Of a stretch of DNA of 32,515 nucleotides, positions 1 to 5,669 are shown one piece after another (positions within the stretch are counted from its first letter, which is position 1; each line of letters opens with the position of its first letter). Made by a program: the position numbers and the translations under genes. The notes beneath the pieces were generated by a model, which was given only the letters and a program-made list of their open reading frames with translations, was not told the origin of the DNA and made no database searches. The DNA comes from an uncultured Anaerolineales bacterium (GTDB taxonomy: Bacteria; Chloroflexota; Anaerolineae; Anaerolineales; UBA4823): the NCBI GenBank assembly GCA_903872065.1, contig CAIQJJ010000758.1, positions 1 through 32,515 on the forward strand. The letters run 5' to 3'.

Positions 1-3000
1 ACGCGAACATCAATTATACGCTCTTTCAAAACCTTTTTAAAACGGGCGATCAGCGCCGGAAAACGCTCGGCTGGCACAGCAAGAACTGTTGGCGAACTAT
101 CGCTCTTAGCGGGCTCTGGCATTTTCAGGTTGGCGGCAGTGACGTTGATGAGAGAATGTCCTTGATATTGCAACAAACGCGACAGCATAAACGCATCCAC
201 TGGCTCTAACATCAACAGCACTTCGTAACCATAAGAATTCACTACGTCAAGCTGAGGACTATAAAGCAGCGAACGCAGATCACTGCGCTCATCATCGCTC
301 AAGATATAATAAATGGCTTGCTGTTCAGGCTTCATACGGGCTACATACTCATCCAATGAAACCCAGGCTTCTGGATGGGTTGTGGTATGAAAACGCAGTA
401 ATGCCGGCAAAGTCTCATGTTCCATCTGGTCAGCGGTCAAACTCTCTTTGATATAGCGACCGAATTCCTTCCAAAACCGCTCGTAAGCTTCTTTATCGTC
501 AGCCGCCAGCGTTTCGAGGATGTGGATCACTTGTGCAGTAACGTACTTCTTTAGAGCAGGCATCATCGAACTGGCTTGCGCGGCCTCAGGCGTGATATGG
601 GGAGATAAATTATCCGAATCCACTACCCCTTGCACAAAGCGAAAATAATCGGGAAGTAAATCTTTGCAATAATCTTGAATCAATACTTTACGAGCATACA
701 ATCGCAGGCCATCATCTTTGCGCAAAGAGAATAGACCGCGATCAAAACGAGATGGAATGTATAGCAAGGTATAAGCATGCACAGAGGTGGTCTCAACACT
801 ATGCCTATAGGCTAAGGGAGGTTCAAAATCGAGGGTAAACTGCCGGTAAAAAGCAGCGTAATTCTTTCTTTCTATTTCCTGCAGCGGCTGACGCCAGAAC
901 ACGGTGGAAAGATTAGCCTGAACTTCGGGATCGCCGACATAAATGGGATAAGGGATAAAGTTTGAATGTTTGCGAATGATCTCTACCAGGCGCTGTTGCT
1001 GCAAGAATTCGGCGGCATCGGCCTTAAGTTTAATGATGACTGTTGTTCCCCGATTTGCTTTCTCTGCCATTGCAACTGTAAATGTATCTTCTCCCTGGCT
1101 AAACCAGGCAGCCGCCTCAGCCGTTGGCCAATATGGGCGCGAGATCACACGCACCCAATCGGCAACCATAAACGTCGAAAAGAATCCTACGCCAAATTGG
1201 CCAATGACATCGAAAATATGTTTCCCGCCGGTTTTTGCAGTTTCTAAAAAGGAGCGTGCGCCGGCATGAAGCGTTGACAGATTTTCTTTTAATTCTTGCA
1301 CGCTCATTCCTACCCCCTGGTCAGTAATTGTCAAAATGTTTTCTGATGGGTTCGCCGTAATACGAATAAAGAGCGGCGCTCCTGGCTGCAACACGTCCCG
1401 ATTGTTCAGAAGTTCAACTTCCATACGCGTGAGGGCAGCCGAGGCATTGGCGATTAACTCACGCAAGAAGACTTCGCGGTCAGTATATTGGGCGCGGCTA
1501 AGAAGCTCCAACAATTGGCGTATTTCTACCTTAAAAGGCGTTGATTGGATCGGAGCACTGGGGGACTTAGGAGTGGAGAGGGACTCTTCTCCTGAAGCGA
1601 TGACTAAGGGGCGCGTGCTCCGCAATTGATTCCGGAGATCATAAAAGCGTTTAAGCGCCTCAATCCCTTTTGAAAGGTCTGCGGTTCGCTTGCGATAACT
1701 GGCGCGCGCCAGAGCAGAGCGGATGTTTTCGATTTGCTGCTCAATTTCGCGCATCGCCTGCTGTTGACGAACACCGCGGCGCAAGTCATTTTCGCGCGCT
1801 TGTAGAAAACTAAAATAATACTGGCTGTGCAAATCGTAAACGCGCTCATTTTCCTCGGGTAGAGCAGCCAATTTTTCGCTGGCATAGTGCTTGAGCAAGG
1901 GTTGAAGTGAAAAACCATGTGAGGCGTCGCCCTTGAGCAGCGAAAAATCCATAAACATTGATAGCAAAGGCAAAGAAGCGCCGGCGACTGCCTGAGCAGC
2001 CTCAAGAGTAAAGCCATCCTGGAAAACTGCCAGGCGGCGAAAAATCGCTTTATCCATGTCTGAGAGACGCTTCCAATTTTGATCGAACACGGCGCGAATG
2101 CTGCGATGACGTTCAGGCATATCCAGCATCGGGGACTGCAAAATATTAATGTCCCGCTGTAAATCTTTAGCAATTTGTTCGCAGGAGAATTCGCGCAAAC
2201 GAGCGGCGGCAAGTTCAATAGCCAGTGGCAAGCCATCTACCAATTTGCAGATTTGGATAATATGAGGGAATTCTTTTTCGGTCGCGACAAAAGCTGTATT
2301 GCTGCGGGTGGCGCGGCTCAGAAAAAGCTGCACTGCAGGATACTCAGCAACATTGGCTTGCTGTAAATCAACAGGATACCCTAAACCTTTCAACTCCAGT
2401 TGGGTCGCGGCCTGGTAGTTAAGCCGCTGCCGACTGGTGATGATTACTTTCACCGATGGCGCCTGCTGAAGAATTTCGAAGATCAAGCCAATTTGATTAA
2501 GCATATCCTCAATCCCATCAATCACCAAAAGGGCGCTCAATGGCATCAGAAATCGAATAAGCTGTTTTTTGGGTTCGGCGTCACCCCGAAACGATAGGCC
2601 AAAAGCCAGGGCAATACTCGGCACTACCAAATCAGGAGAACCGAGTGTGTCCAGAGAAATAAAGCGGATTCCATCGGAAAAGAGATCGCCATGCGCTTCA
2701 GCAGCTTGCAAAGCCAGACGGGTTTTTCCGATTCCTCCTATCCCTACAATAGTGATTAAACGCACGGATGGGGTAGTCAAAGCCTGGTGCAGCCAGTCCA
2801 ATTCTGCCTGGCGACCCACAAAAGATGTGAACTGGGTAGGCAAATTTACCCGTTTGAGAGACCCCGTCACTGGCCTGGTTACTGAAAGAGTGTCCCCATT
2901 TTTGATCTTTTCATAAAAGCTAACCGTTTCAGGGGAAGGTTCGACGCCAAATTCATTGAGCAGAATCCGGCGACAAGTCTGGTATTGTTCTAATGCAGCC

Positions 3001-3674
3001 GCGCGCCGCCCACTAACCGATAAGATGCGCATCAAGCGGCGATGTGCGCTTTCATCCAAAGGATCGAGGCTCACCAAACGCCGCGCGTATTTATGCGCCA
3101 GTTCAAAATCACCAACATTTTGGAAATAATCGCTGAGCGTCTGCAAACCAGAGAGCAGATAACGAAAATATTGCTCCCGTTGAAAAACAATCCACTCTTG
3201 AAAATCAGCACAATCGGGCAAAAAGAGGCCAGAGAGAAAGTCGCCGCGATAGAGATCCACCGCGGCCTGTAAATGCTGTGCGCAAGATAGACAGGTTTCA
3301 ATATTTTTATGGGTGTGCGCCAAAGTGTAACGAATATGGTTATTGAAAGCTTCGGTATCCAGCCAATACGACTGACTCAGATTAAAACGTACAGTCGTAT
3401 CATCTACCAATAAATAGGGGGTAGACGAATCGCGATCGCCGATTGCGCGACGCACACCCAAAAGCGCCTGACGCAAGTTTGTCCGTGCAACCCCTTCTGG
3501 TCGTTCGGGCCAGAATAACTCAGCCATTGCCTCGCGCGTATGGGGATGATCCGATTCGACAACCACATAGGTCAGCAAAGCGCGTTCTTTTTCAGTACGC
3601 AGCGATGCTGTGATGTTGGTATCGTCTAAATTGACCTGAAAAGGTCCTAATAAATACAGTCCAAGAGAAGGCAC
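1..3674 (-). CDS. SARP/BTAD - NB-ARC (STAND) regulator fused in frame to Hsp90 (HtpG); 3' end beyond window
   Basis: One stop-free minus frame covers 1224 codons and leaves the window at the left edge. In order: a SARP winged helix (about residues 5-95, with TEKERALLTY and ARTNLRQAL), BTAD helices (about 100-245), NB-ARC from FVGRQAEL (about 285), Walker A GIGGIGKT at 311-318, a Walker B-like LLVIDG near 383, GLPLAIELAAARL near 478, and an ARC/helical part to about 690. After a Ser/Pro linker, Hsp90 begins near 710: ELIANAS with Glu739 and Asn743, DQGVGM with Asp785, IGQFGVGFFS, then the middle domain. The dimerisation domain would lie off-window. Start: GTG at 3674 has AGGA about 7 nt upstream; GTG at 3680 is possible; an in-frame TGA sits at 3690-3692. 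There is no in-frame ATG or GTG in the linker, so a separate htpG gene is unlikely. Predicted cytosolic; role inferred as an ATP-dependent signal-sensing transcription regulator. Confidence 0.88.
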   Translation of the reverse strand, partial: MPSLGLYLLGPFQVNLDDTNITASLRTEKERALLTYVVVESDHPHTREAMAELFWPERPEGVARTNLRQALLGVRRAIGDRDSSTPYLLVDDTTVRFNLSQSYWLDTEAFNNHIRYTLAHTHKNIETCLSCAQHLQAAVDLYRGDFLSGLFLPDCADFQEWIVFQREQYFRYLLSGLQTLSDYFQNVGDFELAHKYARRLVSLDPLDESAHRRLMRILSVSGRRAAALEQYQTCRRILLNEFGVEPSPETVSFYEKIKNGDTLSVTRPVTGSLKRVNLPTQFTSFVGRQAELDWLHQALTTPSVRLITIVGIGGIGKTRLALQAAEAHGDLFSDGIRFISLDTLGSPDLVVPSIALAFGLSFRGDAEPKKQLIRFLMPLSALLVIDGIEDMLNQIGLIFEILQQAPSVKVIITSRQRLNYQAATQLELKGLGYPVDLQQANVAEYPAVQLFLSRATRSNTAFVATEKEFPHIIQICKLVDGLPLAIELAAARLREFSCEQIAKDLQRDINILQSPMLDMPERHRSIRAVFDQNWKRLSDMDKAIFRRLAVFQDGFTLEAAQAVAGASLPLLSMFMDFSLLKGDASHGFSLQPLLKHYASEKLAALPEENERVYDLHSQYYFSFLQARENDLRRGVRQQQAMREIEQQIENIRSALARASYRKRTADLSKGIEALKRFYDLRNQLRSTRPLVIASGEESLSTPKSPSAPIQSTPFKVEIRQLLELLSRAQYTDREVFLRELIANASAALTRMEVELLNNRDVLQPGAPLFIRITANPSENILTITDQGVGMSVQELKENLSTLHAGARSFLETAKTGGKHIFDVIGQFGVGFFSTFMVADWVRVISRPYWPTAEAAAWFSQGEDTFTVAMAEKANRGTTVIIKLKADAAEFLQQQRLVEIIRKHSNFIPYPIYVGDPEVQANLSTVFWRQPLQEIERKNYAAFYRQFTLDFEPPLAYRHSVETTSVHAYTLLYIPSRFDRGLFSLRKDDGLRLYARKVLIQDYCKDLLPDYFRFVQGVVDSDNLSPHITPEAAQASSMMPALKKYVTAQVIHILETLAADDKEAYERFWKEFGRYIKESLTADQMEHETLPALLRFHTTTHPEAWVSLDEYVARMKPEQQAIYYILSDDERSDLRSLLYSPQLDVVNSYGYEVLLMLEPVDAFMLSRLLQYQGHSLINVTAANLKMPEPAKSDSSPTVLAVPAERFPALIARFKKVLKERIIDVR

Positions 3675-3715
3675 TATCACTTCCTGGTGTCAACAAAAAG
3701 TTAAAGTGGATCAAT

Positions 3716-3743
3716 TTCATAAATGTGAACAAATGATAGGCAA
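3716..3743 (-). promoter_or_regulatory. candidate promoter of the SARP-Hsp90 gene
   Basis: On the minus strand TTGCCT (3743-3738) and TATGAA (3721-3716) are separated by 16 bp, about 40 bp upstream of the GTG start. Both boxes are imperfect, so this is only a plausible sigma-70-type promoter. Confidence 0.3.
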
Positions 3744-3745
3744 AA

Positions 3746-3785
3746 TCACGGAAAAATCACGCGTGTATCACACGCATTTCACGCC
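3746..3785 (+). promoter_or_regulatory. four 11-bp-spaced direct repeats, candidate SARP operator
   Basis: TCACG, TCACG, TCACA and TCACG start at 3746, 3757, 3768 and 3779, an exact 11-bp period. Seen as heptamers they read TCACGGA, TCACGCG, TCACACG and TCACGCC. SARP regulators (ActII-ORF4, DnrI, AfsR) are known to bind heptameric direct repeats spaced 11 bp, with the last repeat about 8 bp from the -10 box. Here a GATAAT box begins 7 bp after the last heptamer. An 8-bp inverted repeat (3734-3741 with 3783-3790) and a 6-bp one (3761-3766 with 3770-3775) overlap the array. The site lies between the SARP-fusion gene and the divergent genes. Confidence 0.62.
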
Positions 3786-3792
3786 TATCAAT

Positions 3793-3798
3793 GATAAT
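3793..3798 (+). promoter_or_regulatory. candidate -10 box downstream of the direct repeats
   Basis: GATAAT at 3793-3798 has no good -35 hexamer; the position is occupied by the TCAC repeats, as at activator-dependent SARP promoters. It would drive the small gene at 3834/3843 and perhaps genes beyond it. Confidence 0.4.
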
Positions 3799-3833
3799 CA
3801 TAACGACAAACTAACTTTTTTGCAAGTCTTCGC

Positions 3834-4064
3834 GTGAATCCTATGTCAATTAACCAAAACAGCTACCAATCATATTTACTCAGAATGTGGAAAGAGAGCG
3901 CCAATGGGGAGTGGCGGGCCGTTTTGTTGAGCATCCCTACTCAAGAGCGCCGACATTTTTCCAATCTGCAATCTCTGTTTGAGTTTTTAGGCAACCAAGA
4001 GGACTACACACTTTCTATCCACCAAAACGAACCGGCAATGACAAGTGCATTGCCGGTGGAATGA
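3834..4064 (+). CDS. small conserved-looking protein, function unknown
   Basis: This 76-residue ORF starts at GTG 3834; ATG at 3843 (73 residues) is an equally good choice because neither has a clear Shine-Dalgarno sequence. It contains YLLRMWKE, GEWRAVLLSIPTQERRHF and LFEFL. From memory, short Chloroflexota proteins with a similar pattern (YLLRLW, WRA, ER-F, LFAFL) are common, but no function is known to me. It has no signal peptide or membrane segment and is probably cytosolic. It is divergent from the SARP-Hsp90 gene and directly behind the repeat array, so it is the most likely direct target of that regulator. Its last codons form a strong inverted repeat. Confidence 0.6.
   Translation: MNPMSINQNSYQSYLLRMWKESANGEWRAVLLSIPTQERRHFSNLQSLFEFLGNQEDYTLSIHQNEPAMTSALPVE
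4031..4057 (+). terminator. 10-bp perfect hairpin over the end of the small gene
   Basis: ACCGGCAATG at 4031-4040 and its exact complement at 4048-4057 enclose a 7-nt loop, just before the stop codon at 4062-4064. The downstream stretch is only moderately T-rich (TTTCTTT), so termination may be partial. It would separate the small gene from the glycan genes. Confidence 0.45.
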
Positions 4065-4157
4065 TTTCTTTGGCAATAACAATGCCTGATGAAGTTTTCT
4101 ATTTTATAAAAATATCGGTTTTATCTATCGTTATTAGCACAACACGGAGCAATCAAC
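4065..4157 (+). promoter_or_regulatory. AT-rich gap with possible promoter for the glycosyl-1-phosphate transferase
   Basis: This AT-rich gap holds TATAAA at 4105-4110 but no convincing -35 at the right distance. An SD-like CGGAG lies about 7 nt before the ATG at 4158. A promoter here is plausible but weakly supported. Confidence 0.25.
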
Positions 4158-5669
4158 ATGGCTGAGTATATAACCAATTTTGAGAACCCACTGGAAACCC
4201 CCCTGATGATGAAAATACACAGGGCTACTAGCAGTTTATCGCGCGAGGCGCAGTGGCGCGTTTTTCGGATCTTCCTGGTGATGAATGATCTCCTGATGAT
4301 GGGGTTGGCTTTTCTGGCAGCGTATCATCTGCGGTTCAACGCTTCAATTAGTATTTTTAATGAGACTGTAAGCCAGGATATTGCTTTTTATCGTATGCTG
4401 GTCTTTTTCTTGCTGCCGCTCTGGCTTGTGCTGTTCGGTATTATGGGGCTGTACCAAAAACGGTTCTTGCTGGGCGGAATTGAGGAATATTCACGTGTCT
4501 TTCGATCAGTGACAATCGGTATTTTGGGCATCATCGTTCTAAGCTTTCTGGATAGTCGTTTTGTCGTTGCACGTGGATGGTTAATTCTATGCTGGCCGAT
4601 CTCTTTCCTGGCAGTGGCGATTGGGCGTTTTTCGCTGCGGCGCGTCGTGTACTCTCTGCGTCAGCATGGTTACTTCCTCACTCCAGCAGTCATCATTGGC
4701 GGCAACCAGGAAGGGCGTTGGTTGGCTGAACAATTAGCCAGTTGGAAAACCTCAGGTCTGCTGCTGCTAGGTTTTGTGGATGAAAAAGTTGCTCCAGGCA
4801 CACGCTTGTATGGCAAACTGCTTTCACTTGGTTCAGTGGATCAATTGGATGAAATTATCGAGCGCTATGATATTGGTGAGCTAATCCTGGCGACAAGTGC
4901 AATCTCCTCACGCAACAAACAGCTTGAAATCTTTAAGCGCTACGGCGTTTCCAGCAAGGTTAATGTGCGCATGTCATCGGGATTGTATGAAATCATTACC
5001 ACCGGCCTGACGGTCAGTGAATTTGCGTATGTTCCTTTTGTGACGATCAACAAAGCCCGCCTGACTGAGATAGATGAGGCGATGAAGTTTTTGCTGGATT
5101 ACGCGATTACTATCCCCTTGTTGGCGCTTTTCATGCCGTTTTTCCTGGCAATCGCTATCATGATCCGAATGGACTCTTCTGGGCCAGTCATCTACCGGCG
5201 GCGCGTTATGGGCATGAATGGAAAGAGTTTCGATGCGTTCAAGTTCCGCACGATGTATACAAACGGGAACGAGATTCTGGATAAGCATCCTGCACTGAAA
5301 CTTGAATTGGCCCAAAACCATAAACTGAAGCACGATCCCCGGATCACGAAGATCGGCGCTTTCTTACGCAAATACAGTCTGGATGAGCTGCCTCAGTTGT
5401 TCAACGTCCTGCGGCGTGAGATGTCTCTGGTTGGGCCACGTATGATCACTCAGGAAGAGGTCTCGATGTATAATCAGTGGGATATCAATCTCCTGACTGT
5501 ACGCCCCGGCATCAGCGGTCTCTGGCAGGTTAGCGGTCGTTCCGACATTTCATACGAGGAGCGGGTTCAAATGGATATGTACTACGTCCGGAACTGGAGC
5601 ATCTGGCTGGATCTGCAAATTGCCATGCAAACGCCGTGGGCGATTATTAAAGGCAAAGGCGCTTATTAG
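4158..5669 (+). CDS. polyprenyl-phosphate sugar-1-phosphate transferase (initiating, WcaJ/WbaP/EpsE type)
   Basis: Predicted to move a sugar-1-phosphate from a nucleotide sugar onto undecaprenyl phosphate at the inner face of the membrane, the first step of repeat-unit assembly. The 503-residue length fits the family. The N-terminal third has about four or five membrane segments, followed by a Rossmann-like domain (IIGGNQEGRWLAEQL, about residues 178-192), another hydrophobic segment near 315-335, and the catalytic bacterial sugar transferase domain: KFRTM near 361, DPRITKIGAFLRKYSLDELPQ near 393-411, LVGPRM, RPGISGLWQVSGR and the YVRNWS region. An SD-like sequence precedes the ATG. The sugar specificity cannot be read. 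It is the first enzyme of the glycan locus. Confidence 0.93.
   Translation: MAEYITNFENPLETPLMMKIHRATSSLSREAQWRVFRIFLVMNDLLMMGLAFLAAYHLRFNASISIFNETVSQDIAFYRMLVFFLLPLWLVLFGIMGLYQKRFLLGGIEEYSRVFRSVTIGILGIIVLSFLDSRFVVARGWLILCWPISFLAVAIGRFSLRRVVYSLRQHGYFLTPAVIIGGNQEGRWLAEQLASWKTSGLLLLGFVDEKVAPGTRLYGKLLSLGSVDQLDEIIERYDIGELILATSAISSRNKQLEIFKRYGVSSKVNVRMSSGLYEIITTGLTVSEFAYVPFVTINKARLTEIDEAMKFLLDYAITIPLLALFMPFFLAIAIMIRMDSSGPVIYRRRVMGMNGKSFDAFKFRTMYTNGNEILDKHPALKLELAQNHKLKHDPRITKIGAFLRKYSLDELPQLFNVLRREMSLVGPRMITQEEVSMYNQWDINLLTVRPGISGLWQVSGRSDISYEERVQMDMYYVRNWSIWLDLQIAMQTPWAIIKGKGAY

Follow-up and report, generated by a model that had tools for sequence, protein, structure and literature searches.

A four-repeat 11-bp array as the predicted rightward operator of a divergent SARP-NB-ARC-HSP90 protein in an uncultured Anaerolineales bacterium

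Four TCAC repeats in an 11-bp register lie between two divergent genes in a 32,515-nucleotide stretch of DNA from an uncultured Anaerolineales bacterium (the window), raising the question of which protein reads them and in which direction transcription would be driven. To our knowledge, SARPs have been described almost solely as activators of antibiotic production in Streptomyces, and no paper on SARP operators in Chloroflexota was found in the literature searched. The array is very probably the rightward activator operator of the divergent SARP-NB-ARC-HSP90 protein, a predicted site. The adjacent SARP is favored because of remote copies of the array, conserved 11-bp modules and covariation between the recognition helix and the repeats. 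This explanation is based on observed sequence, register, -10 geometry, conservation, covariation and gene content.

The leftward gene (3..3680, minus strand) and a rightward small gene (3834-4064) are separated by an intergenic region of 153 bp that contains TCACGGAAAAA TCACGCGTGTA TCACACGCATT TCAC gcctatcaat GATAAT. The direct repeats TCACGGA, TCACGCG, TCACACG and TCACGCC (3746..3785, plus strand) start at 3746, 3757, 3768 and 3779 in steps of exactly 11 bp, and the last heptamer (3779-3785) is followed by a 7-bp gap and by GATAAT at 3793-3798. These positions, given in a preliminary description of the locus, were confirmed when the sequence was reread. One array noticed by eye in so long a sequence might have arisen by luck or from local sequence bias, but this reading is contradicted by several results. 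In Markov-1 shuffles of the intergenic region, four in-register TCAC were found in none of 200,000 and three at a frequency of 7e-5, and any 4-mer occurring four times in an 11-bp register was found in 4.75e-4 (0.05%). Across the 7.49-Mb genome there are two exact matches to the four-repeat pattern and none to the reversed-pattern control. With two more genomic copies and a class-wide conserved architecture also opposing it, chance is hardly credible. An inverted repeat, GCGTGT-ATC-ACACGC, is also present at about 3761-3775. As an operator it was rejected, the symmetry being gone from both other arrays of the genome (GCTTGTATCACACTC and GCGCGTATCACACTC), and the earlier proposal of autoregulation through overlapping inverted repeats found no support for the same reason.

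The leftward gene was described earlier as a SARP fusion, and BTAD, NB-ARC and HSP90 were indeed detected in it. Domain searches and phmmer revealed a SARP portion (winged helix and BTAD), an NB-ARC domain and a C-terminal HtpG-like HSP90, in a gene that is cut by the contig end. Membership among the SARPs is indicated by the BTAD match at residues 107-259 (E 6.1e-24), and phmmer over residues 6-265 matches EmbR (2fez) and AfsR (8hvr), with an OmpR-type DNA-binding domain followed by BTAD. Alignment and covariation place the recognition helix VARTNLRQALLGVRRAI at codons 64-80 (3441..3491, minus strand), with specificity positions T67, Q71 and G75, a triplet carried by this regulator only among the eight BTAD genes of the genome. 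Large SARPs of the AfsR type combine NB-ARC with TPR; here NB-ARC is present and HSP90 takes the place of TPR, in a gene truncated by the contig end. The HSP90/HtpG domain (3-1545, minus strand) is an in-frame C-terminal fusion to the SARP-NB-ARC portion. Among 121 genomes searched, the segment across the SARP/HSP90 junction aligned in this genome only; the fusion is therefore known from one assembly and needs confirmation, and it may be genuine or an assembly chimera. A second HtpG is encoded in the same genome, on contig C414. The closest N-terminal relatives, placed in Chloroflexota/Anaerolineae MAGs by a search with a profile of three sequences, show 56% and 49% identity, and they are SARP-NB-ARC-GGDEF proteins, not HSP90 fusions (L107:4473-6854, minus strand, and L108:1653-3971). 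A sensor-kinase-like gene adjoins each of these GGDEF-ended SARPs.

The -10 box GATAAT (3793..3798, plus strand) was assigned from the sequence, the class-wide offset and the numbering of AfsR (PMC10936776). Its first base is 13 bp past the second base (C) of the last TCAC, which is at -25 if GATAAT represents -12 to -7, so that +1 is predicted near 3805. The array faces the small predicted target gene (3834..4064, plus strand), whose product has 76 aa if translation starts at GTG 3834 and 73 aa if it starts at ATG 3843, and then, 93 bp on, a glycan cluster led by a gene for a Bac_transf sugar transferase (4158..5669, plus strand), which is likely a read-through target of the rightward promoter. 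No plus-strand terminator-like site was found within 3600-4300. A perfect 10-bp inverted repeat (ACCGGCAATG/CATTGCCGGT, 4031-4057) at the small gene's 3' end is terminator-like on the minus strand only.

Pattern searches of the genome were used to scan for a regulon. Only two other sites in the 7.5-Mb genome of this Anaerolineae bacterium (Chloroflexota) have a four-repeat array with an ATAAT -10 at the identical offset. The second copy, C567:9088, is upstream of a membrane protein with weak GGDEF resemblance, and its operon continues with Bac_transf, a GT4 glycosyltransferase, a Wzz-GGDEF fusion and an O-antigen ligase-type Wzy, making it a second exopolysaccharide operon. The third, C3:10709 (minus strand), in which the first repeat is TTAC, precedes a Tad/Flp-pilus operon encoding TadE, TadE, a TadG-like protein, a CpaB/RcpC-like protein, a CpaE-like ATPase, two T2SSF proteins (TadB/C) and TadA. 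All three arrays have (G/C)ATAAT at an equal offset from the last repeat, and the two remote ones, with no adjoining SARP gene, keep their orientation toward their operons. A relaxed scan (three in-register TCAC, at most one mismatch) returned the three known loci and one poor match, and weaker pattern matches (e.g. C654) came near the control rate. Based on sequence match and helix code, the remote arrays are predicted to be under the SARP of the window, giving a predicted regulon of two glycan clusters and one pilus. The glycan genes beside the window array, previously named as possible targets, become likelier ones because the second genomic array also fronts a glycan operon. The Wzz chain-length protein fused to GGDEF in that operon is encoded at L003:12160-13281.

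The footprint was then followed through the class in 115 non-redundant modules in which the small gene is divergent from a SARP gene. At every lag from 6 to 25, each intergenic region was tested for a heptamer that recurs with 6 or more of its 7 bases matching. A lag of 11 was found in 99 of the 115 pairs and a lag of 22 in 38, against 6-25 pairs at other lags; with exact heptamers the counts were 64, 13 and 0-5, respectively. In an earlier set of 39 pairs, lag 11 occurred in 33, compared with 1-10 at other lags and 4.5 in shuffles. SARP operators are direct repeats 11 or 22 bp apart, and this spacing was found both in the window (11 bp) and in the class, which peaks at 11 and then at 22. In 16 of the 115 pairs there is no clear 11-bp repeat. 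The repeat word varies by pair (TCAC, TTAC, TGAC, GAAC, AAAC and others) in a constant architecture. Conservation of TCAC in all relatives was therefore rejected, since the word changes with the SARP and the 11-bp architecture stays. Most other pairs have two repeats, and four or more were found in 6 of 115. The SARPs nearest in helix and N-terminus (G010, G148, G004 and G042:C772) all have four to six T(C/A)AC repeats with the same -10 offset, each array being followed by a small-gene homologue. G148 has a second four-repeat TCAC array (L023:1501-1553, minus strand) before a gene for a secreted beta-helix (NosD-like) protein, and therefore that genome too has a predicted remote target. In another case (L024:1501-1553, minus strand, G001:C194), the TCAC array is aimed at the 3' end of the SARP gene with the small gene on the other side, an orientation unlike all other arrays seen.

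The distance to the promoter is conserved as well. The reference point was the N of the final repeat holding an N-A-C core, a repeat picked blind to the -10. A -10-like hexamer, defined by A at position 2 and T at position 6, followed this N at offset 13 in 60 of 82 pairs and at other offsets in 1-16. The fixed distance from last repeat to -10 that marks a SARP operator, in which the repeat overlaps or replaces the -35, is thus present in the window and in these pairs, and offset 13 equals the -25 contact of AfsR if the -10 is -12 to -7. This bears on the possibility that the array binds the SARP as a repressor or autoregulatory site for the SARP gene, with rightward transcription secondary. 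A leftward promoter-like site, TTGCAA-17-TATGAT (3797..3825, minus strand), is a possible promoter of the regulator gene and, if real, puts the array at the start of the regulator transcript; it is graded weak because three such sites were found where 1.6 were expected. Since it is toward the rightward gene that the -10 offset is constant (60 of 82 pairs), and the C567 and C3 arrays are oriented toward their operons without an adjoining SARP, a primarily repressive role is very improbable. Besides activating rightward, bound SARP could repress its own gene. The remote copies at equal -10 offset before surface-glycan and pilus operons and the repeats in 99 of 115 divergent regions, together with the covariation described below, argue for the SARP operator, rightward direction and small-gene target that had been suggested at the outset.

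The small gene itself belongs to a family with members in 160 of the 298 class genomes that were sampled, with the consensus YxSYLLRLW...WRAxLE..TGE..FxSLxxLxxFL. AlphaFold2 predicts a confident beta-beta-beta-alpha core (pLDDT 94-97). A Foldseek search with the predicted fold gave no PDB match below E 0.001, a PDB profile search gave no match, and Pfam/NCBIfam gave nothing above cut-off. The first downstream gene past the small gene encodes a hydrophobic N-terminus in 81 of 111 modules by a simple hydropathy count, which is suggestive of secreted proteins or lipoproteins; therefore the SARP/small-gene switches appear to serve the cell surface generally, with glycans and a pilus as the predicted case in this genome.

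Whether the repeats belong to the adjacent SARP or to a PhoB/PhoP-type response regulator encoded elsewhere is a question that geometry alone cannot answer, because SARPs share the OmpR-type winged helix. Seven-bp TCAC-like motifs with 4-bp spacers also give an 11-bp period, and the direct repeats bound by PhoP of M. tuberculosis are 7 bp long and set 4 bp apart (PMC4832192). SARP domains were aligned for the pairs in which a repeat is followed by a -10 at offset 13, and all variable columns were ranked by mutual information with each repeat base. Among 44 SARPs of <55% mutual identity, the top-ranking column of 212 was 75 for base -27 and 71 for both -26 and -25. At a 50% identity cut (30 SARPs) the two columns still ranked first, and at a 45% cut (15 SARPs) the signal was lost. 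R75 occurs with G-27 in 11/11 pairs versus 4/33 otherwise (Fisher p 1.8e-7), V/L71 with A-25 in 11/11 versus 5/33 (Fisher p 5.7e-7), and H67 with G-25 in 7/7 versus 4/37, while Q71 pairs mostly with T-26; these tables were drawn up after the column scan, and the column ranks are not post hoc. Columns 71 and 75 align with T88 and R92 of AfsR. Cryo-EM of AfsR, on a scaffold of upstream duplex with a -10 element ending at -7, showed that R92 contacts -38/-27 and T88 contacts -36/-25 (PMC10936776), so the best columns are, by alignment, exactly these contact positions. The T67/Q71/G75 triplet of the window SARP and its TTTCACGC repeat fit the code. Repeats are also pair-specific inside one genome: TCAC at C758, TTTGACG at C93 (H67) and AAC at C629 (V71), the last beside a SARP without a small gene. 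Repeat bases thus appear to be set by the cognate recognition helix, as column ranks and Fisher tests indicate, and at the level of predicted sites operator and SARP evolve together by a readable code. Furthermore, neither remote array is at phosphate genes, and the domain search found no receiver domain, as PhoP/PhoB response regulators have, in the adjacent regulator. A PhoB/PhoP-type reader is accordingly unlikely.

In the proposed mechanism of the adjacent SARP, one protomer would bind each 11-bp repeat, side by side on a single DNA face. The last repeat, 13 bp before the first base of the ATAAT -10 box, would lie over the missing -35, so that bound SARP would replace the -35 element and recruit RNA polymerase for rightward transcription of the small gene at 3834, with read-through to the glycan cluster. 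Through its copies at C567:9088 and C3:10709, this operator would also place a second exopolysaccharide operon and the Tad/Flp-pilus operon under the same regulator. By analogy with AfsR we infer binding, side-by-side contact, activation and ATP-dependent release of inhibition by NB-ARC; control by NB-ARC/HSP90 and the read-through are likewise presumed. A Chloroflexota SARP operator is thereby predicted base by base, with a named regulon and a code from 44 non-redundant pairs agreeing with the AfsR contacts. SARP specificity becomes testable by single swaps of position 71 or 75 against -25 or -27, SARP regulons become predictable in uncultured genomes, and Anaerolineae gain a candidate regulator of their surface glycans and Tad pili. 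More tentatively, and with some doubt prevailing, Anaerolineae may hold a large set of SARP switches, insulated from one another and not described before. Each would combine a SARP with an 11-bp operator of its own and a gene for a small protein, in most cases with secreted or surface proteins encoded next, and the set would have diversified by joint recoding of helix positions 67, 71 and 75 and bases -27 to -25. Here one switch might have gained a cis-acting HSP90 as a sensor or folding domain and control a large share of the surface coat, namely two glycan clusters and one pilus.

Among known systems, the afs box of the afsS promoter in Streptomyces coelicolor is similar in its large SARP with an NB-ARC-type NOD, its 11-bp direct repeats, its contacted bases at -38/-27 and -36/-25 (the -10 ends at -7) and its direct target, a gene for a small protein, the last two features being predictions in the window (PMC10936776). 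AfsR differs in having two repeats instead of four, a TPR sensor instead of HSP90 and T88/R92 as contact residues instead of Q71/G75; moreover, the small target protein of the window matches no known family, and the predicted targets are surface glycan and pilus genes. The PimR operators of Streptomyces natalensis likewise have heptamers with 4-bp spacers in an 11-bp register, in the promoter of a target regulator gene. In that operator of three heptamers, one monomer binds each heptamer and at least two are needed, and the operator was reported not to overlap the -35 box; the consensus CGGCAAG, the SARP-LAL regulator and the antibiotic pathway are different (PMC5930380). PhoP/PhoB-type repeats share the 7-bp repeat with a 4-bp spacer and the OmpR-type winged helix, but their proteins are receiver-domain response regulators, whereas the regulator adjoining the window array lacks a receiver and covaries with its repeats. 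AfsR and PimR operators contain two to three repeats, and four or more, as in the window array, are unusual. Judged from its sequence, the window operator is of the known SARP type, with more repeats than usual and a testable helix code.
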